From the NCBI GenBank assembly GCA_029219245.1, contig JAQXTA010000041.1, positions 1 through 64,000 on the forward strand: a stretch of DNA of 64,000 bases, written 5' to 3'. Each line of letters starts with the position of its first letter. Positions within the stretch are counted from its first letter, which is position 1. Under the pieces are notes generated by a model. That model searched no databases. It saw only the letters and a program-made list of their open reading frames with translations, and was not told where the DNA came from. The stretch is from Lachnospiraceae bacterium (GTDB lineage: Bacteria > Bacillota > Clostridia > Lachnospirales > Lachnospiraceae). The translations under genes and the position numbers were made by a program. Of the stretch, positions 8,944-26,611 are shown one piece after another.

Positions 8944-9603
8944 ATGGCTGACCAGAAAAAACATGAAAAAATATTAAGCCCTGACGGAAAATTCATGTAT
9001 ATTCTGACTAAGGCAGGTCAGATCATTATATTGAATCTGGTATGGCTTTTAACATGTATACCGATTTTTACAATTGGCACTGCAATAACATCTTTGTATT
9101 ATGCAATGATGAAAAATATCCGAAGGAATCGAAGCTATCCGCTGGTAGAGTACTTTGCATCTTTTAAACGGACATTTGTGAGGGGAAGCATTTTTACAGT
9201 TGTTTCAGGAATTTGGCTGTTGTTATTGTATCATCTCCAGACGATAGCAGTTACTGTTCAAGGGGAAAACGGCATTTTCCTGAACAAATTGTATGTGGCA
9301 CTGATGGTTGTAACGGCGGCAATACTGATTTACCTTTTTCCGGTTCTGTCAAGATTTACCATGAGTATGACAGATATGGTTAAACTGGCATTTGTTATGG
9401 CAGTCAGGTTTATAGGGTATACCATATTGATATTGGCAGGTACAGCGTTGCTTTTTTGGTTGAGTTTTTTTTATCTGCCAATACCGGTTATTTTGTTTTT
9501 GCCGGGGACATGGTGCTATGTGTGTACCTTTATGATAGAAAAAGCATTACGAAAATATATGCCTGCATCCGATGGAAATGAAGATGCGTGGTACTACGAA
9601 TAG
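8944..9603 (+). CDS. DUF624 (YesL-like) membrane protein
   Basis: A 219-residue membrane protein with about five hydrophobic segments and the family pattern near the N terminus (LNLVWLLTCIPIFTIGTAITSLYYAM) and LVEYFASFKRTF. YesL-type proteins are almost always encoded beside sugar ABC transporters of the CUT1 class; their biochemical role is not established. The ATG directly abuts the stop codon of the mannanase, so the two are translationally coupled. A second DUF624 gene lies at 24699, next to the other glycosidase. Confidence 0.85.
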   Translation: MADQKKHEKILSPDGKFMYILTKAGQIIILNLVWLLTCIPIFTIGTAITSLYYAMMKNIRRNRSYPLVEYFASFKRTFVRGSIFTVVSGIWLLLLYHLQTIAVTVQGENGIFLNKLYVALMVVTAAILIYLFPVLSRFTMSMTDMVKLAFVMAVRFIGYTILILAGTALLFWLSFFYLPIPVILFLPGTWCYVCTFMIEKALRKYMPASDGNEDAWYYE

Positions 9604-9638
9604 AGTACAATATTTCAGGTATTGAGAAAGGTATGGTT

Positions 9639-12600
9639 ATGAAGATGAAACTGGGGAAAATGAAGAAAAAACTGGTAGCGTTATGTATGGTTTTGACACA
9701 AACGGTTATGACTCTACAGATTTGTACACTTCCTGTTAATGCATCAAATGGTTCATTAACGCAGGAGGAAGCCAGAGAAATTGTAAGTACATATTCTGCC
9801 ATAGATTCGATTCCGGGTTATCTGGATTATCTGGAAAATCATAAAGATGCAGATTATCCGGATGTAACAATGGAGATAAATGCAGCGGATTATACTGTAT
9901 ATATGGAAAATGACAGAGAAGTGGAACCTGAAATCTATACGAATTATGAGGGGATGCAGGGGGAGAGCATTCTGACATCGGAAACCAGTTATATTGAATT
10001 TGAGGTAGAAGTGTCGGAACCCGGTTTTTATCAGCTGGAACTCGAATATTATCCTATTGAGGGTAAAAATTCAGAAATTCAGAGAAGCTTTTTTGTTGAC
10101 GGAGAACTGCCATATGGAGAATTGTCTTTGATTGAGTTTCCACGTATCTGGTCAACAGATGTGGCACAGGCAAGTTTTTCCAATGGTGTATATGATGTAG
10201 TCTGGAACAAGGATAATCAGGGAAATGATATGAAACCGACGGCGGTAGAAATCCCGGAATGGATTGTGTCGGATTTGTATGACAATAATGGATATATTAC
10301 AGAACCTCTTTGCATCTATTTGGCAAAAGGAAAACATACGATTTCCATGAATGCACAAAGAGAACCTATGTTGCTTCGCAGATTACTTTTAACAAACAAA
10401 GAAGATGTAAAAAGTTATGAAGAGGTAAAAAAACAATGGGATGCAGCGGGCGGTCAGAATACCACAGGTGTTAATATTGTGATTCAGGGAGAGAATGCAA
10501 CCAGAACTTCATCCCAGATGCTTTATCCAAAGCAGGATCAGTCATCTCCTGCGGTGTATCCGGCAAGTGCCAAAGAACTTTTGAATAATACAATTGGCGG
10601 TGAAAGCTGGGGAGATGCCGGACAGTGGATTGAATGGGAATTTGAAGTGCCGGAAACCGGATACTATAATATTTCTTTATTTGATAAGCAAAGTTTCATG
10701 AGGGGTATTTATGTATCACGTAAAATTTCCATTGACGGAGAGGTTCCTTTCAGTGAACTGGAGGATTATGGATTTACTTATGATTCTTCATGGAGAACAG
10801 ATGTACTTCAGGATGAGGAGGAGAATGCATATTGTATCTATCTGGAAAAAGGAATTCATACCATCAGAATGGAAGTGGTACTTGGAGAATTCTCAGAGGT
10901 AATTGCAAATGTACAGGATTGCGTATCCCAGTTAAATGCTATCTACCGTAAAGTGATCCGAATTACCGGTGTAAATCCGGATACCTATCGAGATTATCAG
11001 ATTGAAGCTTCTCTTCCGGATTTGAATGAAGAAATGGTAGTGGTAAGGGATCAACTGAATGATTCCATTGAAGATTTGAGAGCAGCGGCAGGACGTACTT
11101 CCGATAAAGAAACAGTACTGATTACCATGAGAGATCAGCTTGATTATCTGATTGAGGATGAAGAAAGATTTGTTAAGGTCGTTTCAACCTATAAACAGAA
11201 TGTAAGAGCATGTGGTACCTGGATTACACAGGTAATTGATCAGCCATTGCAAATTGACCGGTTAAATATTTATTCGCCGGATGAAGTTGTTGAAGTAGAT
11301 TCGAATTCTTTCTTTGACAAAGCCCTCTATGAAGCAAAGAGATTATATTATTCCTTTGTAATTGACTATAATTCATTGGGAGCGACAGACACAGAGGACG
11401 ATGAAAATAAGACGATTACATTATGGATTGGAACAGGACGTGACCAGGCAAATGTCATAAGGTCTTTGATTGATGAATCTTTTACCAACGTTTATGGAGT
11501 CAATGTAAATGTCCAATTGGTAGATATGAACACTTTGCTGCGGGCAGAGCTTGCAGGAGAGGGACCGGACGTGGCAATCCAGGTTGCAAATACCAATGGT
11601 ATTGCAGGTGCGGTATTAAATACAGGTAATGATACACCTGTTAACTATGGACTTAGAAATGCGGTACTTGATTTAACCCAGTTTGCAGATTATGAAGAGG
11701 TTTCGGAACGGTTTTATCCGAGTGCATTGACTGCCTTTGGATTTGATGGAGCGGTATATGCACTTCCTGAAACACAGACTTTTCCGGTTATGTTCTACCG
11801 ACAGGATATTCTATCAGAGCTTGGAATTGATGTGCCAACCACATGGGAAGAGGTAAAGGTTACCATGTCGGTGCTTGCCAAGAATCAGATGGAATTCGGT
11901 ATGTTGCCTTCGGAACAGATTTATGCAATGTTGTTGTATCAGAACGGAGGAGAGTACTATAACGAAGGCGGTATTTCTTCTGCCCTGGATTCTGATATAG
12001 CGGTAAATACCTTCAAGGAATATTGCGAATATTATACCGATTATGGTCTTGACAGATGGACCAGTGTTGAGGAACGTTTCCGTACAGGTGAATGTCCTAT
12101 CATTATTGCAGACTATACCGTATACAATAACCTGGAAGTGTCGGCACCGGATATTGCTGGACTTTGGAACTTTACTGTGGTACCCGGAACGGTACAGGAG
12201 GATGGCACTGTTGATCATTCGGTAGGCTGTACGGGACTTGCAAGCATGATTATGGCAGATACGGATGAACCGGAAGCTTGTTGGGAATTCTTGAAATGGT
12301 GGACATCGGCAGATGTACAGACCTTATTTGACAGGGAAATGGAATCGCTGATGGGGTCTGCAGCGAGAGTGGCAACGGCCAATCAGGAAGCTTTTGAAAA
12401 TATTCCATGGTCTGTTGATACCTATGAGGCATTAGCAGAAGCGTTTACATGGGTAAAAGGAATTCCACAGGTACCGGGCGGATACTATTCTTGGAGAAAT
12501 GTAAACAATGCATTCTATACGGTAACGACGGAAACCGATACTGCATCGCCCAGAGAGGAACTGATGGATAAAGTACTTTACATCAATGATGAGATTACTT

Positions 12601-12659
12601 ATAAACGAAAAGAATTTGGTCTGCCGACATTGGATGATCTGGAAGAGGAGGGAAAGTAA
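9639..12659 (+). CDS. Very large extracellular solute-binding protein with two N-terminal beta-sandwich domains
   Basis: 1006 residues, more than twice the usual size of a sugar-binding protein. It has a signal peptide ending at VNA-SN (about residue 35) with no lipobox. Two galactose-binding-like beta-sandwich regions follow (about 77-252 and 278-420; the second begins IQGENATRTSSQ). Next comes a helical stretch (about 430-580), then a family 1-type sugar-binding module (about 590-1000: TLWIGTGRDQANVIR, GPDVAIQVAN, YALPETQTFPVMFYRQDIL). It probably captures oligosaccharides for permeases 12660-14480. In-frame ATGs at 9588 and 9633 are upstream; 9639 has the best spacing to AAAGG at 9627-9631. 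The stop abuts the next ATG. Confidence 0.85.
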   Translation: MKMKLGKMKKKLVALCMVLTQTVMTLQICTLPVNASNGSLTQEEAREIVSTYSAIDSIPGYLDYLENHKDADYPDVTMEINAADYTVYMENDREVEPEIYTNYEGMQGESILTSETSYIEFEVEVSEPGFYQLELEYYPIEGKNSEIQRSFFVDGELPYGELSLIEFPRIWSTDVAQASFSNGVYDVVWNKDNQGNDMKPTAVEIPEWIVSDLYDNNGYITEPLCIYLAKGKHTISMNAQREPMLLRRLLLTNKEDVKSYEEVKKQWDAAGGQNTTGVNIVIQGENATRTSSQMLYPKQDQSSPAVYPASAKELLNNTIGGESWGDAGQWIEWEFEVPETGYYNISLFDKQSFMRGIYVSRKISIDGEVPFSELEDYGFTYDSSWRTDVLQDEEENAYCIYLEKGIHTIRMEVVLGEFSEVIANVQDCVSQLNAIYRKVIRITGVNPDTYRDYQIEASLPDLNEEMVVVRDQLNDSIEDLRAAAGRTSDKETVLITMRDQLDYLIEDEERFVKVVSTYKQNVRACGTWITQVIDQPLQIDRLNIYSPDEVVEVDSNSFFDKALYEAKRLYYSFVIDYNSLGATDTEDDENKTITLWIGTGRDQANVIRSLIDESFTNVYGVNVNVQLVDMNTLLRAELAGEGPDVAIQVANTNGIAGAVLNTGNDTPVNYGLRNAVLDLTQFADYEEVSERFYPSALTAFGFDGAVYALPETQTFPVMFYRQDILSELGIDVPTTWEEVKVTMSVLAKNQMEFGMLPSEQIYAMLLYQNGGEYYNEGGISSALDSDIAVNTFKEYCEYYTDYGLDRWTSVEERFRTGECPIIIADYTVYNNLEVSAPDIAGLWNFTVVPGTVQEDGTVDHSVGCTGLASMIMADTDEPEACWEFLKWWTSADVQTLFDREMESLMGSAARVATANQEAFENIPWSVDTYEALAEAFTWVKGIPQVPGGYYSWRNVNNAFYTVTTETDTASPREELMDKVLYINDEITYKRKEFGLPTLDDLEEEGK

Positions 12660-13589
12660 ATGGCATCAAACGAAGCAATGGCTATAGCAAAGAAACAGAG
12701 TAAGCTTAGCTATCAGATTAAAAAGAATAAAGCCTGCTATATTATGATGGCACCCTATTTCATCTTTTTTTTCTTATTTACGGTGCTGCCGGTATTAACC
12801 TCCATGGCGTTAAGCTTTACTTATTTTAATATGTTGGAATGGCCTACTTTCAATGGATGGAATAATTATATCAAACTGTTTTTAGAGGATGATATTTTCC
12901 TTATATCATTGAAAAATACTTTGATTTTTGCGGTTGTAACAGGACCAATCAGTTATCTGCTGTGTCTTTTGTTTGCATGGATTATTAATGAGTTTTCAAG
13001 CAAAATAAGGACACTTCTTACCTTGATTTTTTATGCACCGTCTATCTGCGGTAATGCTTATATGGTATGGAGTCTGATTCTTTCCAGTGACCGATATGGA
13101 TACTTGAATGGTATTTTAATTAAGCTTGGAATTATCAATGAACAGAAACTGTGGATGCAGGATGCAAAGTATATTCTGCCTTGTCTGATTGTAGTGCAGT
13201 TATGGTTATCACTGGGAACCGGTTTTCTTTCTTTTATTGCCGGTCTTCAGACTGTAGATAAAAGCTTATATGAGGCGGCAGCCCTTGACGGTGTTAAGAA
13301 CCGCTGGCAGGAGCTTTGGTATATAACCTTACCATCAATGAAGCCTCAGCTTATGTTTGGTGCGGTTATGCAGATTACACAATCCTTTGCGGTGGCAGAT
13401 ATTTCCATTCAGTTAGCAGGTAATCCTTCTGTTAACTATGCAGGAGCAACCGTTGTTACGCACCTTCTGGATTATGGTTCAACCAGATTTGATATGGGTT
13501 ATGCATCGGCAATTGCGACGGTGTTATTCCTGTTAATGGTAGGTACGAATAAACTGGTTCAGAAAATTTTAGGAAGGGTGGGAGAGTAA
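12660..13589 (+). CDS. Sugar ABC transporter permease (MalF/LplB-like), first pair
   Basis: A 309-residue permease with about six membrane helices, the first following a short basic N terminus (about 28-50). The cytoplasmic EAA loop that contacts the ATPase is clear at about residues 203-226 (YEAAALDGVKNRWQELW, then LPSM). It is of the CUT1 type that imports oligosaccharides. It starts immediately after the stop of the large binding protein and ends immediately before the next permease, so the three are co-translated. No ATPase is encoded nearby. Confidence 0.92.
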   Translation: MASNEAMAIAKKQSKLSYQIKKNKACYIMMAPYFIFFFLFTVLPVLTSMALSFTYFNMLEWPTFNGWNNYIKLFLEDDIFLISLKNTLIFAVVTGPISYLLCLLFAWIINEFSSKIRTLLTLIFYAPSICGNAYMVWSLILSSDRYGYLNGILIKLGIINEQKLWMQDAKYILPCLIVVQLWLSLGTGFLSFIAGLQTVDKSLYEAAALDGVKNRWQELWYITLPSMKPQLMFGAVMQITQSFAVADISIQLAGNPSVNYAGATVVTHLLDYGSTRFDMGYASAIATVLFLLMVGTNKLVQKILGRVGE

Positions 13590-14480
13590 GTGGCAAAGAC
13601 AGCTAATAAGAAAAAATATCGCTTTTTGAAACCCAGAGAAAAGAAGCTGAATCGTTCCCTTGCAGGAAATGGACTGCTGTTCTTTATCATGGCGATTTGC
13701 GGATTCTTTATGGCACTTCCGCTTATTATGATAGTGAACAACTGCTTAAAACCTCTGGATGAAATTTATCAATATCCTCCCAGAATTTTGGTCAGGAATC
13801 CTACTTTGGAGAATTTCACAGATCTGTTTACGATCATGAGTGATTCCTGGGTACCTTTTTCGCGATACATATTAAATACCATTATCATAACCGGGTTTGG
13901 TACGGTCGGACATGTAATTTTAGCCTCTCTGGCCGCCTATCCATTGGCGAAACATGAATTTCCGGGAAAAAAGCTTTTGTTTAATATGGTTGTATTGTCC
14001 ATGATGTTTTCCTGGACAGTAACACAGATTCCAAACTATATGATTATTAGCTGGCTTGGAATCAATAATACTTATTTAGCACTGATATTGCCGGCATGTT
14101 CCTATGGTATGGGGCTTTATTTGATGAAACAGTTTATGGAGCAGCTTCCGACTTCATTGATGGAGTCAGCAAGGCTGGATGGTGCTTCGGAATATCAGAT
14201 TTTTTGGAAGATTGTTATGCCGAATGTAAAACCGGCATGGTTGACACTGGCTATCTTCCAGTTTCAGCAAATGTGGGGTAATACAGGAAGTATGTTCCTA
14301 AGAGATGAACAGTTAAAGCCTCTGCAGTTTGCATTGCAGCAAATTTCGGCTGGTGGTACTGCAAGAGCCGGTGCAGCAGCGGCAGTTACTTTTATTATTG
14401 CGGCGGTGCCGATTATCTTTTTCCTGGCATGCCAGAGCAACGTACTGGAAACCATGACAACTTCCGGTATGAAGGATTGA
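13590..14480 (+). CDS. Sugar ABC transporter permease (MalG-like), first pair
   Basis: A 296-residue permease with six predicted helices. The EAA-type loop is MESARLDGASEYQIFWKIV at about residue 190, followed by MPNVKP. Translation starts at a GTG that abuts the stop codon of the preceding permease. It pairs with that protein to form the channel for the large binding protein at 9639. Confidence 0.92.
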   Translation: MAKTANKKKYRFLKPREKKLNRSLAGNGLLFFIMAICGFFMALPLIMIVNNCLKPLDEIYQYPPRILVRNPTLENFTDLFTIMSDSWVPFSRYILNTIIITGFGTVGHVILASLAAYPLAKHEFPGKKLLFNMVVLSMMFSWTVTQIPNYMIISWLGINNTYLALILPACSYGMGLYLMKQFMEQLPTSLMESARLDGASEYQIFWKIVMPNVKPAWLTLAIFQFQQMWGNTGSMFLRDEQLKPLQFALQQISAGGTARAGAAAAVTFIIAAVPIIFFLACQSNVLETMTTSGMKD

Positions 14481-14493: not shown

Positions 14494-15984
14494 ATGAGAA
14501 AACATAATTTGTTAAAAAAACTAACTGCTTCTTTGTTTGCAGCTGTCATCATTGCTGTTACTTTTGAACAGACGGTTCAAGCGGAAGAGCAGCCTTATGA
14601 TACTTACAATTATGACTATCGCAAAAATATAGTTATGACACCTGCAGCTTACGTACCAAACGGTTCGGTTACCGGACTATCAGTGGGAACGACAGATTTT
14701 AAAGAACCACAGGATTTGTGTGTGGCACCGGATGGTCTGGTTTATGTTGCAGATACACAGAATAACAGAATTGTTGTATTGAATGAAACGATGACAGATG
14801 TTGTCCGTACTATCGAAGGGTTTGAAAGAGAGGGTAATTCAGATACCTTTAATCAGCCATATGGAGTCTGTGTTTCGGAAAGCGGTTATTTGTATGTTGC
14901 GGATTCTATGAATAAGAGAATTGTGGTTTTAACACCTGAAGGAGAATTCGTCAATATTATTGATAATCCTCAGTCGGAAATTTTAGAGGAAGGTTTTGAT
15001 TTCATACCGATTAAGGTAACGGTTGATTATGCAGACAGAGTGTATGTCATTTCCAGAAATGCTTTTGAAGGAATCCTTGTTTTTGAAAGTGACGGAAGCT
15101 TTACCGGATACTTTGGAACCATCGATGTTAAAATTACCCTCTGGGAAAAATTCTGGAGAAAGCTAGCAACCAAAGAAGAACGTTCCAAGCAACAGCTCTA
15201 TATTCCTACCGAATTTACCGGTATGGATGTGGACAGTGACGGCTTTATTTATGCGACCAATATTGACTCGGACGGTGTGCAGGCTGTAAGACGTTTAAAT
15301 CCCCAGGGAAAGGATGTTATCCAGAAGGGAGAAAATGAAAATGTAGGTGGCGACCTTCGTGTTTATACCTATGGCGATTACAGTGGTCCCAGTGAAATAA
15401 CGGATGTCGTTTACCGGGGAAAAGGTATTTATTCTCTGCTGGATCGAAAGAGAGGACGTATCTTTACTTATGATAAAGAGGGAAACCTTTTGTATATCTT
15501 CGGTGGACTTGGAAGTCAGGAAGGAACTTTTACAACACCGGTTGCCATTGAAGCAATTGATGACCAGCTTATTGTACTGGATTCCTATTATGGTGCCATA
15601 CTTAAGTTTGGTGAAACCGAATATGGAAGTCTGATAAATGAGGCGGTAGGACTTCGCTACGACGGTGATGAAACGCAGGCAATTAATATATGGCAGAAGG
15701 TTTTGAAACTGGATGAAAACAATGAGCTTGCAAATTCCGGTATTGGCAAGGCATATCTGACGGCAGGCGATAATGAGAAGGCCATGAAGTATTTGAAGCT
15801 TGGAATGAATCGAAAGTACTATTCCGTAGCATGGAAACGATATCGAAATGAGATTCTTACAAAAAATATGAATGTCATCATGACGGTAATAGTAATTCTG
15901 ATTGCCTTGTCAATTATATATAAAAAGTTTTTTAAGCAACAGATAAAAGCAAAGCTTGCAGAAAAGAAGGGAGGACTTTCGTGA
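14494..15984 (+). CDS. Membrane-anchored NHL-repeat beta-propeller protein with a TPR-like segment
   Basis: 496 residues. A signal peptide (1-31) is followed by NHL-type beta-propeller repeats, for example EPQDLCVAPDGLVYVADTQN then NRIVVL, QPYGVCVSESGYLYVAD, and later GMDVDSDGFIYATN. About residues 385-450 look like a tetratricopeptide pair (AINIWQKVLKLDENNELAN, YLTAGDNEKAMKYLKLGM). A single membrane helix (about 458-480) and a basic tail close the protein. The propeller should face outward. It starts 13 bp after the permease and its TGA overlaps the next start. Such proteins recur beside large binding proteins and DUF5696 genes; the function is unknown. Confidence 0.8.
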   Translation: MRKHNLLKKLTASLFAAVIIAVTFEQTVQAEEQPYDTYNYDYRKNIVMTPAAYVPNGSVTGLSVGTTDFKEPQDLCVAPDGLVYVADTQNNRIVVLNETMTDVVRTIEGFEREGNSDTFNQPYGVCVSESGYLYVADSMNKRIVVLTPEGEFVNIIDNPQSEILEEGFDFIPIKVTVDYADRVYVISRNAFEGILVFESDGSFTGYFGTIDVKITLWEKFWRKLATKEERSKQQLYIPTEFTGMDVDSDGFIYATNIDSDGVQAVRRLNPQGKDVIQKGENENVGGDLRVYTYGDYSGPSEITDVVYRGKGIYSLLDRKRGRIFTYDKEGNLLYIFGGLGSQEGTFTTPVAIEAIDDQLIVLDSYYGAILKFGETEYGSLINEAVGLRYDGDETQAINIWQKVLKLDENNELANSGIGKAYLTAGDNEKAMKYLKLGMNRKYYSVAWKRYRNEILTKNMNVIMTVIVILIALSIIYKKFFKQQIKAKLAEKKGGLS

Positions 15985-16616
15985 TGAAACAATTATTTTC
16001 CAAGGATAAGTGGAAATATGCATTTTATACGGTAAGTCATCCTGTCGATGGCTATTATGAAATAAGACACCGGGAACGTGGAAGTGTACCAATTGCCTGT
16101 TTGCTTGTCGTTTTATTTTCTTTCAGCTTTTCCATTAACAGAATTATGGCAAGTTTTATTGTGAATGACGTGGATCCGCTTGATGTCAATGCATTTACAG
16201 AATTATTATCAGTACTTTTGCTTTATGGATTATTCTGCGTAGGAAATTGGTCCATTACCTGTCTGATGGAAGGAGAGGGGAGATTTAAGGATATTTCGAT
16301 TGCAATTGGCTATGCAATGATTCCTATGATTGTATGCTTTAATCTTGGAACGGCTGTCAGTCAGTTTGTAGCACAGAATGAAGAGGCGTTTTATTGGATG
16401 ATTCTTGGTATTGGTATTGCTTATGGACTTTTTATGATGCTGATTGGAATCATGCAGGTACATAATTATACGTTGGGCAAAACCTTGGTTACGATTTTTC
16501 TGACCTTTATTGCCATGTTCATTATAATTTTTATTGTATTGTTGTTTGTGGATTTGATTAATCAGGTATACAGTTTCTTTTATAGCATATATCAGGAACT
16601 GATATTCAGAGCATAG
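15981..16616 (+). CDS. Yip1-family multi-pass membrane protein
   Basis: 211 residues. After a polar N terminus containing HPVDGYYEIRHRERGS there are about five hydrophobic segments. The pattern (an ISIAIGYAMIPMI turn, then GIAYGLFMMLIGIMQVHNY) fits the Yip1/YIF1-like domain found in bacterial membrane proteins. Start is the GTG at 15981 or the ATG at 15984; both overlap the stop of the NHL gene and are served by GGGAGG at 15969-15974. Its place between the NHL and DUF5696 genes suggests the three form one membrane complex. Confidence 0.75.
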   Translation: MMKQLFSKDKWKYAFYTVSHPVDGYYEIRHRERGSVPIACLLVVLFSFSFSINRIMASFIVNDVDPLDVNAFTELLSVLLLYGLFCVGNWSITCLMEGEGRFKDISIAIGYAMIPMIVCFNLGTAVSQFVAQNEEAFYWMILGIGIAYGLFMMLIGIMQVHNYTLGKTLVTIFLTFIAMFIIIFIVLLFVDLINQVYSFFYSIYQELIFRA

Positions 16617-16629
16617 GAGGCGGATGAGA

Positions 16630-19203
16630 ATGAGAAAAAGTAAAAAAGTTTTACTAAGCGTATCAGGGCTCATCCTGCTGGTTGTCCTTACCTGGCTGGC
16701 ATATTATCTGATTCACTTTTATTGTTATGATAACTATAAAGATGATTTATCTTCTTATGAATATGAAAAAGGTACAGAATTTCGTCCTATTAACGAGTCA
16801 AAGAGCGATGTGGATGGTATGGTGCTTGCAACCGAAAATGACAAGCTAAAGCTATATGTTAATGCAGAAACCGCAGAGGTAGCAATATATGATAAAAGGA
16901 ATGGGGAGATTGTCCGTTCCAATCCGGTGAATGCTGACGAGGATGCGATTGCCACAGAAACCAATAAGAATTATTTGAAATCGCAGATTATTGTAGATTA
17001 TTTTAATGCTTCCAGAACAGAAGGAACCTTTGATTCCTATAGCTACTGTACGGAAAGAGGACAGGTAGAAGCGGAATCGATTGAGAATGGAATCCGTTTC
17101 CTTTATAACATGGGAGATTTGACGAGTCAGACAGGTATTGTTCCGCAATATATCAGCAAGGAAACATTAAACAATGTGCTTCTTGCAATGTCTCCGGAGG
17201 GAATGAAATTTTCCCAAAAGAAGTTTGTGGAAAGTGATGTGGCAGACGGATATATGGAAATGCTGGAGTCTACGGTAAAAGGTGCTTCCCAGCTTCGTAA
17301 GTTAAATAAATATTTTGAAGAAGCAGGTTTTACTTATGAGGATTATATACGAGAGATGGAAAACTCCGGTGTGGAAGATGCGATTCCTATTTCTTTTCTG
17401 ATTCCGTTAGAGTATCGTCTGGATGGAGATTCCGTAGATGTATCCATACCGATGAGTGGTGTGGAAGAATATGGAGGCGGTTCTATCTTCCGTATTCAGT
17501 TGTTAAGATATTTTGGAACCGCAGGGACAGAGGAAGAAGGCTATATGCTGGTGCCGAATGGTTCCGGTTCCTTGATTCGCTTTAACAATGGCAAAACGAC
17601 AGCATCTGCTTACTCCGAATATGTATACGGGATTGATCCTCTTGCTGCAGAATACACAGTAATGGAAAATACAGAAAATATAAAAATGGCATTGTTTGGT
17701 ATTTTCAGAGAAAACAGTAGTGTCTTTGCAACGATTGAAGATGGTGCTTCCTTCAGTTATCTGACGGCAGGTGTAGCGGGAAAAATAAATGAATACAATT
17801 ATGTTTATCCCACTTTTGTTTTGAGAGGAAATGATAAGCTTGCAATGTTTGGTTCTACAGGTAATGAAGCGGAACTCCCTATTGTTGAATCGGATTTGTA
17901 CGATGCTAATCTGACGGTACGTTACAGTATGCTGGATGAAGAACATTCAGGATATGCCGGAGCTGCCAACTATTACAGAGAAAGGCTGGCAGAAGAAGGA
18001 GTATTGTCAGCAAAAGAGAAAACAGAAGAGGATATTAAGTTTTATTATGACGTACTTGGTGGAGTAACCATGACGAAGTTCTTTATGGGAATTCAGTATG
18101 ACGGTTTGTATGCTATGACTACTTTTGATGAAGCTGCCGAAATTTCCAATGACCTTGCAGCAAGCGGAGTAAGCAATCAGGTTATGAATTTCCAAGGATG
18201 GATGAACCGGGGCTATTATCATGATGTTACGGATAAGATTAAGGTTCCGAGGGCACTGGGAGGCAAGTCTGATTTGGAAGCTTTGAGCAATACAGTGGAC
18301 TCCAACGGCGGTTCGTTCTATGGAGATGTGGCACTTCAGAAAGTAACGTTAATCAGTAAAAGATATTCCGCATCTAATGAAACCTCAAGATATTATGCAG
18401 GGTACATAGCAGATTTCGGACTGGTAAATCCGGCGAATCTCCGTAAGACATCGGGACTTGGTTATGAAGAAAATATTTATATGCTGATATCACCCAAATT
18501 CCTGGTAAGATATGCGGATAAATTTGCGGATAAGGTACAGAACTTTGATATTCAGGGTATCTCTTTGAGAGACTTAGGTGATGAGTTGCATTCGGATAAG
18601 AGAAGAACGAATGTTATCGACAGAGAGAAAGCGCTTGATGTCGTAGAGGCAAGACTTTCTAATATGGAAGAGACCGGTAAAAACATCATGTTAAATGACT
18701 GTAACGATTATGCTTTTGCTTATGCAGATGATATCATCAATGCACCTTTAACAGATAATGATTATTATATTGTAGATGAAACCGTTCCTTTCTATGAGAT
18801 GATAATTCATGGATATATAGATTATTCCGGTTCGGCAATTAACTTAAGTGATACTTATGACAAGACAGATGTTGTATTGAATCTGGTTGAAAATGGAGCA
18901 TCCCCACATTTCATGTTTTCCTGGGGAAATGCGAATGAGATTAAAAACACTGGTCTTAACCGGTTCTATGCAACAACGTATTTGAACTGGAAAGAAGATG
19001 CACTAGCTATTTATGAAGAAGTAAACGGTGCGTTAAAGTATGTGAACGGCGAAGCAATTACGAATCATGAGATTTTAGAGAATGGTGTACGTGCAATAAC
19101 CTATAGCAATGGAATAACTATTTATGTAAATACAACAAATGCAGATCAGACGATAAACGGAGTATCGGTACCTGCAAGAAGCTATGGAATAGGGGGAGTC
19201 TGA
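16630..19203 (+). CDS. DUF5696-family protein, membrane-anchored, large extracellular domain
   Basis: 857 residues. One N-terminal helix (about 8-30) anchors a long extracellular part. The N-terminal half is beta-rich (KLYVNAETAEVAIYDKRNGE). The middle contains stretches that read like a TIM-barrel glycosidase: FQGWMNRGYYHDV, QGISLRDLGDELHSD, MLNDCNDYAFAYADD. The end (GVRAITYSNGITIYVNTT, VPARSYGIGGV) resembles the small C-terminal beta domain of many glycosidases. Enzyme activity is not shown. GGAGG at 16616-16620 favours the ATG at 16630 over that at 16624. The stop lies 2 bp before the next permease. Confidence 0.75.
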   Translation: MRKSKKVLLSVSGLILLVVLTWLAYYLIHFYCYDNYKDDLSSYEYEKGTEFRPINESKSDVDGMVLATENDKLKLYVNAETAEVAIYDKRNGEIVRSNPVNADEDAIATETNKNYLKSQIIVDYFNASRTEGTFDSYSYCTERGQVEAESIENGIRFLYNMGDLTSQTGIVPQYISKETLNNVLLAMSPEGMKFSQKKFVESDVADGYMEMLESTVKGASQLRKLNKYFEEAGFTYEDYIREMENSGVEDAIPISFLIPLEYRLDGDSVDVSIPMSGVEEYGGGSIFRIQLLRYFGTAGTEEEGYMLVPNGSGSLIRFNNGKTTASAYSEYVYGIDPLAAEYTVMENTENIKMALFGIFRENSSVFATIEDGASFSYLTAGVAGKINEYNYVYPTFVLRGNDKLAMFGSTGNEAELPIVESDLYDANLTVRYSMLDEEHSGYAGAANYYRERLAEEGVLSAKEKTEEDIKFYYDVLGGVTMTKFFMGIQYDGLYAMTTFDEAAEISNDLAASGVSNQVMNFQGWMNRGYYHDVTDKIKVPRALGGKSDLEALSNTVDSNGGSFYGDVALQKVTLISKRYSASNETSRYYAGYIADFGLVNPANLRKTSGLGYEENIYMLISPKFLVRYADKFADKVQNFDIQGISLRDLGDELHSDKRRTNVIDREKALDVVEARLSNMEETGKNIMLNDCNDYAFAYADDIINAPLTDNDYYIVDETVPFYEMIIHGYIDYSGSAINLSDTYDKTDVVLNLVENGASPHFMFSWGNANEIKNTGLNRFYATTYLNWKEDALAIYEEVNGALKYVNGEAITNHEILENGVRAITYSNGITIYVNTTNADQTINGVSVPARSYGIGGV

Positions 19204-19205
19204 AA

Positions 19206-20126
19206 ATGAAAAGAAATAAAAAAAGAATGTCTCTCACAACCAAAAGAAGTATAACAGGACTTTTGTTTATTTTTCCATGGCTGATTGGCTTTATCTGGTT
19301 TTATGCCAGAAGCCTGTTTATGTCGGTACAATTTTCACTGTGTAATCTGACGGTTAATCCGGGTGGTGGTTATACACTGGATTTTACCGGACTTGACAAC
19401 TATATTTATGCTTTTCGGGTACATGGTACGTTTAAACAGATATTGACAACCTCTGTCGGCAATATGCTGATAGATGTTCCATTGATTACCTTTTTCAGCT
19501 TATTTATGGCAATTTTGCTGAATCGGAAATTTAAGGGCAGAACTTTGGTAAGAGCCATCTTTTTCCTGCCGGTTATCTTAAACTCCGGGGCAATCTTAGA
19601 TGCGATGGAACTTGCCAGAACGATGATGAGCGGCGGTATCTCGAGTGCCAGTGCAGAAATGGCATCGGCAGCATCCGGAAGCGGTATCAGCATACAGTAT
19701 TATATTCAGATGTTTGCCACACTGGGGCTTCCTGATTCCATCATTGAATATATAGCAGGAGCAGTAGGGCGAATCAGTGATATTATCAATGCTTCCGGTG
19801 TGCAGATTATTATTTTTATTGCAGCGCTCCAATCCATTCCGGGTTCTATGTATGAAGTTGCAAGAATTGAAGGAGCAACCGCTTATGAAACCTTCTGGAA
19901 GGTAACCTTTCCAATGGTACTGCCACACATTATTACGAATGTGGTATATACGGTGGTGGACAGTTTCGCAGATTCAGAGGTTGTAGAGCTTGCTTATGAT
20001 ACGGCATTTACGAACAACAATTACGGACTTAGTTCTGTAATGAGCTTGACCTCTACGGTGATTACCTGTCTGATTCTTGTTCTCATCTGTCGGTTTATAC
20101 AGAAACGAACGTTTTATTATAATTAG
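19206..20126 (+). CDS. Sugar ABC transporter permease (MalF-like), second pair
   Basis: A 306-residue permease with an N-terminal basic stretch and six helices. The EAA loop reads YEVARIEGATAYETFWKVTF followed by PMVLPH (about residues 217-242). It contains an extended, small-residue-rich loop (SGGISSASAEMASAASGSG, about 140-158) that is not usual for this family. It forms the second permease pair of the locus with the next gene and begins right after the DUF5696 gene. Confidence 0.92.
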   Translation: MKRNKKRMSLTTKRSITGLLFIFPWLIGFIWFYARSLFMSVQFSLCNLTVNPGGGYTLDFTGLDNYIYAFRVHGTFKQILTTSVGNMLIDVPLITFFSLFMAILLNRKFKGRTLVRAIFFLPVILNSGAILDAMELARTMMSGGISSASAEMASAASGSGISIQYYIQMFATLGLPDSIIEYIAGAVGRISDIINASGVQIIIFIAALQSIPGSMYEVARIEGATAYETFWKVTFPMVLPHIITNVVYTVVDSFADSEVVELAYDTAFTNNNYGLSSVMSLTSTVITCLILVLICRFIQKRTFYYN

Positions 20127-20141: not shown

Positions 20142-21158
20142 ATGGAAAAGGCAGAACAAAAACAAAAGCTTTCCTGGAAAAGTATACAGGATAAGTACCG
20201 GGAAATAAAAGAAGATACGCAGTTTGCCAATGACAGGAAACGCTGGCTATCCAACATCAAAAAGTTTGTCCTGGGATTATTCAGGCTGGTTATTATCGTG
20301 GGAATCTGTTATGCAATTTTAGGACCGGTTATTGGTATTATCAGCAGCTCTTTTTTCTCGGATGCAGATAATTATAATACTATGGTATATCTGATTCCTC
20401 AGGCTCCTACGTTGGAAAGATATAAGCTGGCAATTAAGTATTTGAATTATGGACAGACGGTAACCGCTTCTTTACTGTATTCTGTTACATTGATGCTGAT
20501 ACAGGTATTTGTCTGTTCCATGGTAGGTTATGGATTTGCAAGATATACATTTCCTTTTAAAAATCTACTGTTTGCATGTGTAGTGATAATGATTGTCATT
20601 CCTACCCATACTATCATGCTGCCGCTTTACATGACATTTGCGAAATTTGATGTTCTGGGCATTATAAAACTGATCAGAGGTTCAGAGGTCAATCTTTTGT
20701 CGACACCAATACCGATGTATATCATGACATTGTTTGGCTGTGGACTCCGGTCGGGACTTTATATTTATATTTTTAACCAGTTCTTTCGCGGACTTCCGAA
20801 AGAAATTGAAGAAGCTGCATTTGTGGATGGAGCAGGAACCTGGTATACTTATTTTCGCATTATGCTGGTAAATGCAATTCCTTCTGTCATTACGGTGGCT
20901 ATTTTCTCCATGGTATGGCAGTATAATGATACATTTTATGCAAGGTTATTTTTGATTAGCGATGATATTGTAATCAGTAAAAAGATTTCCACAATTCAGG
21001 CGACTATTTCCAATGTTGAGAAGATTTATGATCCAAACATACAGGAATTGTATCTGGATGCTGGAGTTGTATTGATTACGATACCAATTATCATTATTTA
21101 TGTCGCTCTTCAGAAATACTTTATAGAGGGAGTAGAGAGAAGCGGTATTGTCGGATAG
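20142..21158 (+). CDS. Sugar ABC transporter permease (MalG-like), second pair
   Basis: A 338-residue permease. It has a long charged N-terminal extension (about 1-45) and six helices. The EAA loop is EIEEAAFVDGAGTWYTYFRI (about residues 221-240), followed by MLVNAIPS. GGAGAAAAAAG precedes the ATG. It is likely to work with the solute-binding lipoprotein at 23156. Confidence 0.92.
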   Translation: MEKAEQKQKLSWKSIQDKYREIKEDTQFANDRKRWLSNIKKFVLGLFRLVIIVGICYAILGPVIGIISSSFFSDADNYNTMVYLIPQAPTLERYKLAIKYLNYGQTVTASLLYSVTLMLIQVFVCSMVGYGFARYTFPFKNLLFACVVIMIVIPTHTIMLPLYMTFAKFDVLGIIKLIRGSEVNLLSTPIPMYIMTLFGCGLRSGLYIYIFNQFFRGLPKEIEEAAFVDGAGTWYTYFRIMLVNAIPSVITVAIFSMVWQYNDTFYARLFLISDDIVISKKISTIQATISNVEKIYDPNIQELYLDAGVVLITIPIIIIYVALQKYFIEGVERSGIVG

Positions 21159-21217
21159 ATGAAACGCTGCTTTACTTAAAACAATTCAACTAAATAAAAC
21201 AAAGGAGGATGGAAAAG

Positions 21218-23110
21218 TTGAAGGCTAAAAAAATTATGGCATTATGCCTTACGGCCGCAATGACATTTAGCATGATTGGCTGTGGCAGTAATGCAACAAC
21301 AGAAACTGCTAGTGAAGAAACGGAAACTCAGCCGGAAGAAAGTGAGGAAACTACACAGGAGGAAGCTGCGGATAGTGCCGTAGAGGCTACAGGCGAGGTG
21401 AGTCTGGACTTTGAAGATGGCTTATTTGGTTTCGTAGGAAATGACAAAGCCGTAAATTCCGCATCGGATGATTCCCTTTTTTCCGTAGAAGATTACAACG
21501 GATCAAAAGCGTTAAAAGTAACACCGCAGGGTAAGATGCCTTATGTCGGAATTCAGGTAGATGCATTGCTTGGGGATAAGGCTTCCAGTCTTAAGTCGAT
21601 TGAATTGACAATTGGAACAGAAAATCCGGATGGAGAGTTCTGTGCAACTTCCGGTAATATTTATGCACTTCTTGGTGCAGATAATGCAAAGTATAATCAA
21701 GGATGGTCCGTATATTTAGAGGACGCAAATCCAAAGACAATAAGCTATACACTTCCGGATGACCAGTCATTTGCGGAAGGTAATAGTATCATAATATCTC
21801 TGGAAACAGATACCGGAAAAGACAAAGGTGCTACACAGGCGAACATGTATCTTGATAATATTGTATTTAAGGATGCTTCCGGCAACGTACTTGCAGCTGA
21901 CAGCAGTGCAGAATATGTTGCAGCCAGCACAGGGGTTGACAGATCTAATTTATGTTCCCTGAAAGATGCTGTTGAATTTGCTGATTTCGCATGTACAGGC
22001 GATGCATGGGCACAGAATGGTTTTGATATGCCGCAGGAGATTCTGGATGCACTTGTTCCCGGCTCTGTAGTAGAAATTACCTTTAGTTCTGAAACCGGAA
22101 ATATGTGGATTGTAATGCCGGATGCAGCAGCAGGCTGGATGAGAGTTGCACAGGGAAATGCTGATGGAAGCGGAAGTGATTCTGCATACATCAATAATTC
22201 CGGTAATATCTGCCAGATTACCTATGAGCAGATTGCAGCAGTATGTGGTGATGATGTATCTACATGGGGCGCAAGAATGCAGTGTGAATCAGATGGTGCA
22301 TGGGAAGTACAGGCTGTTAAGGTAGGAACAAAAGCTCCTTCTTATGCTTTGGCAGATGCTGTTGAGTTTGCGGATTTTGCATGTACAGGGGATGCATGGG
22401 CACAGAACGGTTTTGATATGCCACAGGAAATTTTGGATGCATTAGTTCCGGGAAGTGCAGTAGAAATTACATATAGCTCTGAAACGGGAAATATGTGGAT
22501 TGTAATGCCGGATGCCACAGCAGGCTGGATGAGAGTCGGACAGGGTAACGCGGATGGAAGCGGTAGTGACAGTGCAGTCAGTGATGGCAGCAAGAGTTAT
22601 ATTACCTATGAGCAGATTGCAGCAGTATGTGGTGATGATGTATCTACATGGGGTGCAAGAATGCAGTGTGAGTCAGATGGCGCATGGGAAGTGTACAGTG
22701 TTAAGGTTGGAACCGCAAAAGAGTTTAAAATGTTGAATAATCTTGTTGAATTTACTGATTTTTCTGCCAGTGGAGACGGATGGGCACAGGCTGGTGCAAC
22801 AATGCCACAGGAAATTCTGGATGCGCTTGTTCCCGGGTCTGTTGTAACGATTTCTTATAGTAGTGACAATGGAGATTTATGGATTGTCATGAATGAAGCA
22901 GCAGCAGGCTGGATGAGAGTCGGACAGGGTAATGCAGATGGAAGTGGTAGTGATTCTGCAGTATTTAATGGAAATACCTGTCAGGTTACTTTTGAACAGA
23001 TTGCAGAGCTTTGCAGTGATGATGTATCTACCTGGGGAACAACCATGCAATGTGAAGCTTCCGGTGCATGGGAAGTTTACAGTGTAGCGGTTGGTACAGC
23101 AGCTGAATAA
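21218..23110 (+). CDS. Lipoprotein with three tandem ~125-residue repeats, TTG start
   Basis: 630 residues. The lipobox is MIGC (Cys22), then a Glu/Thr-rich linker (24-55) and a beta-sandwich-like domain (about 58-235, starting EVSLDFEDGLFGF). Three repeats follow at about 247-373, 377-500 and 504-628. Each has the signature VEFaDFactGDaWAQ, PQEILDALVPGS, GWMRVgQGNADGSGSDSA and a CGDDVSTWGarMQCE-like motif. The ATG at 21209 touches AAAGGAGG (21201-21208); the in-frame TTG at 21218 is 9 bp away and is the likely start. No known family was recognised for the repeats; a carbohydrate-binding role is inferred from location. Confidence 0.8.
   Translation: MKAKKIMALCLTAAMTFSMIGCGSNATTETASEETETQPEESEETTQEEAADSAVEATGEVSLDFEDGLFGFVGNDKAVNSASDDSLFSVEDYNGSKALKVTPQGKMPYVGIQVDALLGDKASSLKSIELTIGTENPDGEFCATSGNIYALLGADNAKYNQGWSVYLEDANPKTISYTLPDDQSFAEGNSIIISLETDTGKDKGATQANMYLDNIVFKDASGNVLAADSSAEYVAASTGVDRSNLCSLKDAVEFADFACTGDAWAQNGFDMPQEILDALVPGSVVEITFSSETGNMWIVMPDAAAGWMRVAQGNADGSGSDSAYINNSGNICQITYEQIAAVCGDDVSTWGARMQCESDGAWEVQAVKVGTKAPSYALADAVEFADFACTGDAWAQNGFDMPQEILDALVPGSAVEITYSSETGNMWIVMPDATAGWMRVGQGNADGSGSDSAVSDGSKSYITYEQIAAVCGDDVSTWGARMQCESDGAWEVYSVKVGTAKEFKMLNNLVEFTDFSASGDGWAQAGATMPQEILDALVPGSVVTISYSSDNGDLWIVMNEAAAGWMRVGQGNADGSGSDSAVFNGNTCQVTFEQIAELCSDDVSTWGTTMQCEASGAWEVYSVAVGTAAE
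21956..23105 (+). repeat. Three direct repeats (~380 bp each) inside the lipoprotein gene
   Basis: Units begin near 21956, 22346 and 22727. Units 1 and 2 share long nearly identical DNA stretches (for example GATGCATGGGCACAGAA around 22002 and 22392), and units 2 and 3 share GGCTGGATGAGAGTCGGACA. This suggests recent internal duplication or gene conversion. Confidence 0.85.
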
Positions 23111-23155: not shown

Positions 23156-24577
23156 ATGAAGATGTATAAAAAATTACTTGCTATGGGATTAAGTGTAGCC
23201 ATGGTTGCAGGGTTAACAGCGTGTGGCAGTACAGCAGAATCCGGTAGTACAGCAGAGTCCGGCAGTGCAGGAAACGAAACAGCTGCAGAGGAAGGAACAG
23301 ATAACACGGTAGCCTCTGCAAATAATGGCGAAACAAGAAAAATCAGGATTGGTACATGGTATGATCATTATTATGACAGTACCAATACGGATATTCATGA
23401 TGACCCAAGTGTTTCGGATGAAGAACTGGCACAGGCACATTTTGATGTTGTCAAAGAAGTAGAAGATAAGTATAATGTTGAAATTGAATTTGTTAACCTG
23501 ACCTATACCGGTATTCAGGAATCTATCAATACTTCTATTCTGGCAGGCCAGCCTGACTGTGATATTTATGAGGTTGACTTAAGTTTTGGTATTGGAGCTG
23601 CCTTAAATGGATATGCAACGAATTTGGAAGAAGTGCTTCCGGAAGATCAGGATATTTTCAATGATCAGATGGTATTCTCACAGGTAGATATCGGACTGGA
23701 TGAGGGAGTATATCTGTTCCAGTCGAACAGTGCAGAGATGGTACTTGCCAATACTTATATGCTTGCTTATAATAAGCAGATGCTTGATGAAGCAGGTCTT
23801 GAAGATCCGAATGCACTCTATGAAAGAGGCGAATGGACATGGGATAAGTGGAGAGAGTATATGTTGACCCTTACACAAGATACAGATGGTGATGGTGTAA
23901 CGGATGTTTATGGTTATGGTTCCCGTTGGGATTTCCTTGTGTATAACCTGTTAATGAGCAACGGTACATCCATTGCATCAAGCAGCACAGAAAACTTATC
24001 CGCTCCGGAAGTAACAGAAGTACTTGATTTTATTTACAATATGTATAATGTAGATCATGTAGCGAATCCATGGAATTCGGATGACTTTGATTATAATCAG
24101 AACTGCTACATGGATGGCAGGGTTGCATTCTGGATTGATGCTGCATGGATTTCTTCCGCAAATGAAGATGCAAACCTTGAATTTGATGTTGTTTGGTGTC
24201 CATGGCCTATCGGACCAAGTGGTGATGAATCTACTAATAAGTTTAAAAATGTTTCTTCCGGTAATGCATGGATGATTCCGGCTGGTGTGGAAGATCCTGA
24301 ATTCGTCTATAATGTATTCTATGATTGGCAGAACTGGTACCATGGAGACACTGATCTTCGTGATGGTGACCTTACATGGTGGGAAGACTGTGCTATTACA
24401 GAAGAAAACTACGCTGTTATGGAATATATGGGACAAAGAGGTGCTTTTGACCTTTGGAATTCCCTTGGACTTGAGTGGGATTGGGCACAGCTCTTGAATG
24501 GCGAAATGACCGCAGCACAGTTCCAGGAAACATACAAGCAGAATGTGCAGGATGCACTGGATGCATTTTATAAATAA
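23156..24577 (+). CDS. Sugar ABC transporter solute-binding lipoprotein, second transporter
   Basis: 473 residues. The lipobox GLTAC gives Cys23, followed by a Ser/Gly/Glu linker (24-60). The mature part follows the extracellular family 1 binding-protein pattern: RIGTWYDHYYDS, AGQPDCDIYEVDLSFG, MLAYNKQMLDEAGLEDPN, GEWTWDKWREYMLTLTQD, and NAWMIPAGVEDPEFVY in the second lobe. A calcium-loop-like DTDGDGVTDVYG is present (about 241-252). It is the likely partner of permeases 19206 and 20142. AGGAGGA precedes the ATG and a terminator follows. Confidence 0.92.
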   Translation: MKMYKKLLAMGLSVAMVAGLTACGSTAESGSTAESGSAGNETAAEEGTDNTVASANNGETRKIRIGTWYDHYYDSTNTDIHDDPSVSDEELAQAHFDVVKEVEDKYNVEIEFVNLTYTGIQESINTSILAGQPDCDIYEVDLSFGIGAALNGYATNLEEVLPEDQDIFNDQMVFSQVDIGLDEGVYLFQSNSAEMVLANTYMLAYNKQMLDEAGLEDPNALYERGEWTWDKWREYMLTLTQDTDGDGVTDVYGYGSRWDFLVYNLLMSNGTSIASSSTENLSAPEVTEVLDFIYNMYNVDHVANPWNSDDFDYNQNCYMDGRVAFWIDAAWISSANEDANLEFDVVWCPWPIGPSGDESTNKFKNVSSGNAWMIPAGVEDPEFVYNVFYDWQNWYHGDTDLRDGDLTWWEDCAITEENYAVMEYMGQRGAFDLWNSLGLEWDWAQLLNGEMTAAQFQETYKQNVQDALDAFYK

Positions 24578-24617
24578 CATGGTGCCAACAGGCGACAAGG
24601 AATAATATGGATTGATA

Positions 24618-24698: not shown

Positions 24699-25334
24699 AT
24701 GTTTCGCAGCGATAATTTATTTAGTCGTTTTATGAATGTACTGTTTGATATTATATGTATTGACGTTTTATGGCTGCTGTTTTCCATACCGGTGGTAACA
24801 GCAGGGGCGGCAACAACAGCAGCATATTATGCCATGTCAAAGACGGTCAGATACAAAACCGGTTATGTTTTTAAAGAATTCTGGCATTCCTTTAAATGTA
24901 ATATGAAACAGACCATTCCATTAACGATAATCTTCTGGATGGTATTGGCAGTTCTTTCGGTTGATATTTGGTATGTATGGACGAATGATAATAAAGTAAA
25001 CAGTGCTATTTTTATGGTGTTAATTCTGGTATTATTTTTGGTGCTGGGAATTGTAATTTATATTTTTCCTTTATTATCAAGATTTGAAAAAAACAATATG
25101 GATTTGATAAAAACGGCTGCGTTTGTAATGTTTAAGTTCCTGCCGATAACCATCTGCATTCTGACTGTTGCATTATTATGCTGTATCGGAATTTATCTGA
25201 TGCCATGGGCACTTCTGGTTATTCCCGGAATTTATATGTTTTTTCTGTCTTTTCCGATGGAAAAGATTTTAAGAAGACTGATGCCGAAGGTAGAAGAAGA
25301 AAGCGAGGAAGCAAAAAAATGGTATTATCAATAA
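24699..25334 (+). CDS. DUF624 (YesL-like) membrane protein, second copy
   Basis: 211 residues with about five hydrophobic segments. The family opening is clear: DNLFSRFMNVLFDIICIDVLWLLFSIPVVTAG, read in two parts. An in-frame ATG at 24612 would place the start inside the terminator stem. The ATG at 24699 has GTAGGAG (24687-24693) at good spacing and is chosen. It overlaps the GH5 gene by 16 bp. Together with the copy at 8944, each glycosidase of the locus has its own DUF624 neighbour. Molecular role unknown. Confidence 0.82.
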   Translation: MFRSDNLFSRFMNVLFDIICIDVLWLLFSIPVVTAGAATTAAYYAMSKTVRYKTGYVFKEFWHSFKCNMKQTIPLTIIFWMVLAVLSVDIWYVWTNDNKVNSAIFMVLILVLFLVLGIVIYIFPLLSRFEKNNMDLIKTAAFVMFKFLPITICILTVALLCCIGIYLMPWALLVIPGIYMFFLSFPMEKILRRLMPKVEEESEEAKKWYYQ

Positions 25335-26611
25335 CAAGGGGCAGTAAAAGAAAAATTATGTTGACCATGACGGTGCTTGCATTGTTATTTTCCGGATGCG
25401 GGAAACAGGAAGAGAATTTCGTTACAGAAACGGAGAAAACGGAAGAAATGATCGTGGAAAAGAATGATTCAGAGGAAAAGAATGATTCAGAGGAAAAGTA
25501 TGATTCAGAGAAAAAGAATGATTCAGAGAAAAATTCAGAAAATATTTCTGAGGGGAATTCAGAGATGGAAAAAATAACAGCAAATGATGTTGTAAGTGAG
25601 ATGAAAATCGGATGGAATCTGGGGAATACTATGGACAGCATCAATTCTTCGGCACTGAAGACGATGCCTGCAGAAACATGGGAAACCGCATGGGGAAACC
25701 CTGTTACAACCCAAAAACTAATTGACACAGTGATTGGAGAGGGGTTTAATATAATTAGAATTCCGGTAAGCTGGAACGATCATATTCTTGTTTCGGGTAA
25801 TTATGAAATCGAAGAGGGCTGGCTTGACAGAGTACAGGAAATTGTAGATTATGCGTATGATCAGGGAGTTTATGTCATATTAAATACGCATCATGAGAGC
25901 TGGTATGAAACCTATTATGATAAAGAGGAACATTCCAAAGAAGTACTTGCTGCAGTGTGGACACAGATTGCGGAGCGTTTTCAGGACTATGACGAACATC
26001 TTATTTTTGAAGGATTGAATGAACCCAGAAAAATAGGTACCAGTGTGGAATGGACCGGCGGGGATCAGGAAGGCTGGGATGTAGTTAACTCTCTCAATGC
26101 AACATTTGTTCAGACGATTAGAGAGAGTGGTGGCAATAATCCTTATAGAATTTTAATGATTCCCGGCTATGCTGCAAACTGCTGGGAAGGAATCAAACAT
26201 CTTGAGGTACCGGAGGATGACAAAATTATTGTATCGGTACATGCTTATGAACCATATGATTTTGCCCTGAATAAACAGGGGAGAGGTACATGGAATCAGG
26301 ATACCTCCAATATAGATAACATTATGAATTCGCTGGATACTCTTTTTATATCGAAAGGGATTCCTGTGGTTATCGGCGAATTCGGAGCAATGTATAAAGA
26401 GGTAGAAGGAAATGAAGAAGAGCGTGCACAATGGGCAGAGTATTATGTCCGTGAAGCAGCGAAGATAGGTGTGCCATGCATCTGGTGGGACAATGGTGCT
26501 TTCGAAGGGGATGGAGAATTGTTTGGATTGATTGACAGAGAAAGCTATGAGTGGAAGTATCCTTTGATTATAGATGGTCTGATGAGAGGTATTTCACAGG
26601 CGGCTGATTGA
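25319..26611 (+). CDS. Glycoside hydrolase family 5 endoglucanase/mannanase-like lipoprotein
   Basis: 430 residues. The lipobox LFSGC (Cys27) is followed by a low-complexity Asn/Asp/Ser/Glu/Lys linker (about 45-83) and a GH5 barrel. Family landmarks are KIGWNLGNTMDS (about 96-107), FNIIRIPVSW (143-152), NTHHE (189-193), GLNEP (232-236; Glu235 is the acid/base), SVHAYEPY and VIGEFGAMY (Glu354 is the nucleophile). The pattern is closest to GH5 subfamily 4, which cuts beta-1,4-glucans, xyloglucan or mannan, so the substrate stays open. The start inside the upstream DUF624 gene is set by the Met just before the signal peptide. Confidence 0.9.
   Translation: MVLSITRGSKRKIMLTMTVLALLFSGCGKQEENFVTETEKTEEMIVEKNDSEEKNDSEEKYDSEKKNDSEKNSENISEGNSEMEKITANDVVSEMKIGWNLGNTMDSINSSALKTMPAETWETAWGNPVTTQKLIDTVIGEGFNIIRIPVSWNDHILVSGNYEIEEGWLDRVQEIVDYAYDQGVYVILNTHHESWYETYYDKEEHSKEVLAAVWTQIAERFQDYDEHLIFEGLNEPRKIGTSVEWTGGDQEGWDVVNSLNATFVQTIRESGGNNPYRILMIPGYAANCWEGIKHLEVPEDDKIIVSVHAYEPYDFALNKQGRGTWNQDTSNIDNIMNSLDTLFISKGIPVVIGEFGAMYKEVEGNEEERAQWAEYYVREAAKIGVPCIWWDNGAFEGDGELFGLIDRESYEWKYPLIIDGLMRGISQAAD
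25458..25529 (+). repeat. Four 18-bp tandem repeats encoding the GH5 linker
   Basis: Four copies of a unit like AAAGAATGATTCAGAGGA encode repeats of K-N/Y-D-S-E-E/K. The repeats are in frame (18 bp = 6 codons), so copy number changes would alter linker length without a frameshift. Confidence 0.85.

Follow-up and report, generated by a model that had tools for sequence, protein, structure and literature searches.

In a 64,000-nucleotide stretch of a Lachnospiraceae genome (GenBank assembly GCA_029219245.1, contig JAQXTA010000041.1, positions 1 to 64,000 of the forward strand), here termed the window, three closely coupled genes lie between two pairs of sugar permease genes. The first (14494..15984) encodes an NHL beta-propeller protein of 496 residues for which Pfam and hydropathy indicate a TPR-like stalk, an N-terminal signal-like segment and a C-terminal membrane helix. 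The second (15981..16616), whose frame is opened by a GTG at 15981, encodes a Yip1 membrane protein of 211 residues with five hydrophobic segments, and the third (16624..19203) a DUF5696 protein with an N-terminal membrane anchor, a beta-sandwich, a TIM barrel resembling glycoside hydrolase family 129 (GH129) and a C-terminal beta domain. All three are on the forward strand, as are the genes that frame them: upstream SBP1, a binding protein of 1023 residues (9588..12659), with the permeases P1a (MalF type, 12660..13589) and P1b (MalG type, 13590..14480), and downstream the permeases P2a (MalF type, 19206..20126) and P2b (MalG type, 20142..21158), both with an EAA motif, and SBP2, a sugar-binding protein of ordinary size (473 residues, 23156..24577). 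The end of P1b (14480) and the start of the NHL gene (14494) are separated by 13 bp, the NHL and Yip1 genes overlap by 4 bp, and 2 bp lie between the DUF5696 stop and the P2a start. A preliminary description of this DNA had the coordinates, frames, order, gaps and topology of the three genes right, the DUF5696 start being either 16624 (859 residues, 7 bp after Yip1) or the next ATG at 16630 (857 residues, 13 bp). The cassette is a real, widespread and apparently undescribed accessory of a sugar ATP-binding cassette (ABC) importer; its novelty had been proposed, and in the open-access literature searched, preprints not included, neither a description of the module nor the word DUF5696 was found.

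As evidenced by a six-frame search with profiles of the module proteins, the same arrangement is found at many other loci. A diverse set consists of 60 regions around DUF5696 matches from genomes of the class Clostridia (in a search with PF18952 over 291 class genomes, 77 had matches above the cut-off). To these we added 80 named loci, the best from scanning with a DUF5696 alignment of 11 rows, which comprise 54 mostly clostridial loci and 26 from Paenibacillus and Cohnella; having been picked by conserved DUF5696 patterns, they lean to close relatives. Counting fused as well as separate NHL and Yip1 genes, the order SBP1-P1a-P1b-NHL-Yip1-DUF5696-P2a-P2b was found at 114 of the 140 loci (46/60 diverse, 44/54 mostly clostridial, 24/26 Paenibacillus/Cohnella). 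The 26 loci that depart from it mostly begin or stop inside the module, and in three (L035, L041, L190) module genes are split. In the L041 copy SBP1, DUF5696 and P2a are distributed over several frames, apparently through decay or sequencing errors. A count by longest open reading frame, in which antisense frames hide genes, gave 89/139 loci (42/59, 30/54 and 17/26 for the three sets).

The module-type profiles of Yip1, NHL and SBP1 were also searched singly in 148 class genomes, a broken gene being counted once, so that the second pieces of one NHL row and three SBP1 rows were dropped. Module-type Yip1 occurs at 46 places in 37 of these genomes. At a distance of at most 12 kb on its contig, DUF5696 is present at all 46, NHL at 44 and SBP1 at 43; the three Yip1 places without a partner lie where the contig is short or ends. 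Conversely, Yip1 accompanies 44 of the 45 strong NHL places, the remaining one being on another contig of a fragmented genome, and 43 of the 47 SBP1 places, the other four being found in genomes with module genes, but on separate contigs. Two more NHL matches, away from the module, are weak (E about 1e-11). Frequent solitary occurrence of the families had been named beforehand as evidence against a unit; in this census no module-type Yip1, NHL or SBP1 was found alone, other kinds of NHL and Yip1 protein being outside the count. Short DUF5696-like proteins do also occur away from the module. Chance adjacency of the three genes is rejected on the census and the conserved order, which bear out the initial claim of a unit tied to a sugar importer and mark the association as obligate. 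Pairwise distances for seven components over 40 loci correlate at 0.86-0.96, the highest value (0.96) being that of NHL-Yip1 with DUF5696. Two of the alignments, A3 and A6, hold the window together with 57 of the 80 named loci and with 49 of 65 listed SBP1 proteins, respectively.

The cassette is not tied equally to both permease pairs. In a sample of the phylum the Yip1 profile gave matches in 26 of 299 genomes, five of which hold 10, 10, 17, 10 and 8 matches. These genomes (G335, G357, G376, G429, G458) measure 2.2-3.0 Mb, and their 8-17 module-type Yip1 matches each amount to an expansion like that of polysaccharide utilization loci (PUL); G376, with 17 copies, is an assembly of 310 contigs with 5% contamination. 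Forty copies, taken from these five genomes and one more, were checked in six frames. DUF5696 is kept in all 40, NHL and Yip1 are fused in 39, and both P2 genes are present in 36, the other four copies lying in a masked stretch or where a contig ends (34/40 by longest open reading frame). Among the 36 copies with at least 2.5 kb of upstream sequence, SBP1 and the P1 pair are found there in 14; the other 22 have no P1 gene upstream, 20 of them showing no SBP1 match and two a match of only 22-28 bits. Because these 22 copies lack the first half while the cassette and the P2 pair stay together, the SBP1-P1a-P1b half is optional, and the gene content shows a core of NHL-Yip1-DUF5696-P2a-P2b, usually with SBP2. 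An equal link to both pairs is rejected by these half-modules: the preliminary description was correct about the sugar importer, but the cassette it had assigned to both pairs belongs to the second one, the first being absent in 22/36 copies. One copy (L206) is rearranged yet together, reading DUF5696-P2a-P2b-NHL/Yip1-SBP2.

The profile of P2a located 45 places in the class sample, of which 42 are at most 1.5 kb from DUF5696; the other three are a contig-broken gene end, a weak match to another permease, and locus L238, whose set adjoins genes that by eye resemble those of cyclitol or inositol metabolism. This search, which scored up to 15 candidates per genome, overlooked some diverged P2a genes and gave no match in five cassette-bearing genomes (G002, G006, G008, G014, G102). 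SBP2 accompanies the module at 30/31 mostly clostridial and 22/24 Paenibacillus/Cohnella named loci with enough flank, a condition that held for only 4 loci of the diverse set. The glycine of the EAA loop is kept in P1a (127/127), P1b (125/125), P2a (129/131) and P2b (130/130). SBP1 is composed of two beta-sandwiches (about 95-430), a helical bundle (435-550) and an SBP domain (606-1011), the last of which filled the structure searches, so that the N-terminal beta-sandwiches were hardly probed. Within the unit no gene for an ATPase was recognised; elsewhere in the genome, two frames of 377-378 residues match the OB_MalK domain.

The NHL protein matches PF01436 with 55.1 bits (cut-off 20, E 5.2e-15), two repeats passing singly, and its residues ~380-440 give TPR matches below threshold; hydropathy marks one N-terminal and one C-terminal segment. 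For the Yip1 protein the match to PF04893 has 51.7 bits (cut-off 28.6, E 1.2e-13), and hydropathy gives the five segments. The predicted topology agrees with the outward-facing cassette first proposed. A common open frame of at least 600 residues joins Yip1 and NHL at 21 of the 46 census places, and the two are fused in 23/59 loci of the diverse set. On a quick 95-row tree of DUF5696 the fused or separate state changes 8 times, the starred branches alone forcing 7, although this count is possibly one or two too high, as the row of L076 lies at a contig end and is possibly a truncated fused gene. That fusion or fission recurred argues for NHL and Yip1 proteins that would work in contact. In the tree the DUF5696 proteins of L043, L044, L046 and L047, which bear the same family code as the window, lie far from the window copy, so that two or more old lineages of the module, stemming from ancient duplication or transfer, seem to be present in this family.

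The DUF5696 protein of the window matches PF18952 with 641 bits (cut-off 25.6) over positions 2-612 of the 612 of the model and has a single hydrophobic segment, at its N-terminus. By sequence and model its fold resembles GH129, GH101 and GH36, and it has the layout of beta-sandwich, TIM barrel and C-terminal beta domain known from NagBb (5WZN) and DagB (5OPQ). A protein of 3221 residues with this domain in L213 was discarded as an artefact, a masked stretch having been read as X. The catalytic positions were derived from alignments. In the profile alignment the column of the nucleophile (NagBb D435, DagB D486) is occupied by R649, with D650 one place on; the latter aligns with an Asp of the stand-alone DUF5696-like relatives. 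In the acid/base column, to which DagB E517 belongs by alignment together with NagBb E478, a residue that we take to fill this role, the window protein has N691. The position is likewise lost in 133 of the 140 other module copies, with Glu in 7 and both catalytic positions retained in 4, whereas Glu is found in 4/4 GH129 proteins and 10/10 stand-alone relatives. For the GH129-like enzyme DagB, mutants of Asp486, Glu517, Glu531 and Asp202 are given as inactive in an excerpt of the published report (PMC5698469). Sequence and model show DUF5696 as a GH129-like protein that mostly lacks the conserved acid/base residue; unlike the GH129 and GH129-like alpha-glycosidases it is membrane-anchored, and its nucleophile position is not conserved throughout the family. 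An ordinary active GH129 is rejected because the acid/base position is mostly lost, and for the same reason the trimming of glycans suggested in the preliminary description is unlikely. At the two catalytic positions of GH129, Asp and Glu are both retained in ten stand-alone DUF5696-like proteins from outside the module (L091-L100, 561-668 residues); these are candidate members of a glycosidase family not yet described.

The neighbours of the module provide hints to its substrates. In the window, again on the forward strand, a GH26 enzyme with CBM35, a probable beta-mannanase (7402..8943), and a DUF624 membrane protein (8944..9603) precede SBP1, and a protein that carries three CBM65 domains and, recognised by eye, a lipobox (21209..23110), probably a surface glycan-binding lipoprotein, lies between P2b and SBP2; genes of similar size come after P2b in many Lachnospiraceae loci. 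From GH26 to SBP2 all genes share one strand and are closely packed, and terminator-like sites that would fit a single transcription unit flank the block at 7160-7202 and 24617-24650, in a consensus scan that found 16 sites against 11.7 expected (standard deviation 3.8). It is followed by a GH5 (cellulase family) enzyme (25178..26611), whose real start is possibly further in, and a LacI-type regulator (26620..27636). Directly upstream of the block, at 1779-7138, the window encodes a Na+-pumping complex of the oxaloacetate decarboxylase (OAD) type (carboxyl transferase, OAD gamma, OAD beta, PYC_OADA), and a 6S RNA (56885-57079) and a T-box leader (60275-60509) exceed the Rfam thresholds.

At the other loci, neighbours were tallied for 89 of 140 collected proteins of the diverse set, 86 of 90 for Paenibacillus/Cohnella and 72 of 72 for the many-copy genomes, showing the 25 most frequent families out of 102, 66 and 93; 164 neighbours of the named mostly clostridial loci were left out. 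The Paenibacillus/Cohnella neighbours include GH26 (19), GH2-type mannosidase (5), GH43 (5) and GH113 (4), those of the diverse Clostridia GH10 (4), GH43 (3) and two each of GH26, GH130, fucosidase and GH106, and those of the many-copy genomes GH43 (3), GH28 (3), apiosidase-like proteins (2) and GH31 (2). The glycan setting assumed at the outset is in accord with these tallies, the cassette often lying beside mannan, xylan or glucan enzymes.

We favour, with moderate confidence, the view that the cassette supplies a sugar ABC importer of the MalFG type with additional, permanent subunits, which would form a surface platform for the capture of glycans. Yip1 would sit in the membrane beside P2a and P2b as an assembly adapter and carry the outward TPR and propeller, and the anchored DUF5696 ectodomain would act as a pseudo-glycosidase whose former active-site cleft binds glycan chains but leaves them uncut. 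The platform would capture or orient oligosaccharides produced by enzymes of the neighbourhood (in the window, GH26 and GH5) and pass them to binding proteins and permeases energised by a shared ATPase that is presumably encoded elsewhere. The physical complex, the binding of glycan and the hand-over are what we infer.

Several findings weigh against this platform. Taken alone, the conserved order and the distance correlations fit plain co-inheritance as well, and L060 and L061 have P1b at an unusual position. Locus L238 contains a true P2a-P2b-SBP2 set without the cassette (4371-7837), so that P2-type permeases can exist without it. Outside Paenibacillus the enzymes near the module are scattered over many families, and the module therefore serves no single glycan; for the window copy, chains of the beta-mannan or beta-glucan type are most likely because of its GH26, GH5 and CBM65, an assignment drawn from neighbours only. 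Finally, D650 is present in 54/54 mostly clostridial and 26/26 Paenibacillus/Cohnella named copies, which would fit residual or unusual catalysis.

The three proteins might instead be mere assembly or stability factors for the permeases that make no contact with glycan, an idea we consider rather unlikely. Its models are 4F2hc and YknW. In the pair 4F2hc (SLC3A2)-LAT1 a single-anchor ectodomain of glycosidase fold with no known glycosidase activity is attached to a transporter, a design that the single-anchor DUF5696 ectodomain without full catalytic residues resembles, although 4F2hc has a GH13 fold, serves a eukaryotic amino-acid transporter and was matched in the profile search at a non-significant E of 2.3. 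YknW, of the Yip1 family, is in the excerpted literature on YknWXYZ a dedicated ABC transporter accessory in Bacillota; the transporter is a MacB-type exporter of a peptide toxin, and no NHL or DUF5696 partner is described there. The importer without cassette at L238 also fits, but a role beyond help in folding is suggested by the size of the outward domains and by the glycan-binding proteins and enzymes encoded nearby. Unlikely as well, and slightly more so, is that DUF5696 represents a new family of active alpha-glycosidases and would remove side chains, such as galactose from galactomannan, at the membrane before import. The GH129/GH101/GH36-like fold, the constant D650, the invariance of D338, D650, D658 and D718 in a 58-row alignment and the stand-alone relatives with both catalytic positions speak for it; against it, few module copies keep the acid/base Glu, and even the Asp is kept in only 23/58 of the diverse set. 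We judge it improbable that the cassette is a sensor reporting extracellular glycan or importer occupancy rather than a part of uptake: an outside propeller and TPR with a membrane Yip1 would suit a receptor, and LacI-type and some AraC-type regulators are among the neighbours, but the Pfam scan found no cytoplasmic signalling domain in the three proteins, and the fixed linkage is to permeases, not to one regulator. Mere co-transcription of two importers and three genes without any relation to one another, of the kind that bacterial operons can show, is largely refuted and highly improbable in view of the obligate co-occurrence over many families, the repeated fusion, the half-modules that keep the same core and the rearranged but intact L206.

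Returning to the proposed capture platform, the module is most akin in its transport part to CUT1/MalFGK2-type importers with a shared MsmX-type ATPase, with which it has in common MalF/MalG-type EAA permeases, sugar-binding proteins and the lack of a visible ATPase gene in the unit; it adds three obligate surface or membrane subunits, often two permease pairs, and a binding protein of ~1000 residues with a beta-sandwich extension. The comparison to Sus made in the preliminary description holds as an analogy of role, with surface glycan capture beside enzymes and many paralogous copies per genome as in the PUL of Bacteroidota, but not for the parts: the module has an ATP-driven importer in the cytoplasmic membrane and no outer membrane, SusC or SusD, and a Pfam scan of ten window proteins found no SusC/SusD-type family. 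It is a tentative possibility, in our view doubtful, that the module is a Bacillota counterpart of Sus, in which a propeller-TPR-Yip1 tower and an anchored pseudo-glycosidase on an ABC importer, spread into many paralogous loci, would feed long or branched glycans to a MalFG-type channel, with a former alpha-glycosidase as glycan holder.

How Gram-positive gut and soil bacteria, which have no outer-membrane Sus, capture large plant glycans is only partly understood. The module is present in 37 of the 148 sampled class genomes, and elsewhere in the phylum Yip1 reaches up to 17 copies per genome. If the proposed role is true, sugar ABC importers would include an unrecognised class with obligate surface subunits, one of them a pseudo-enzyme, and DUF5696 would be a genome marker for glycan-uptake loci.

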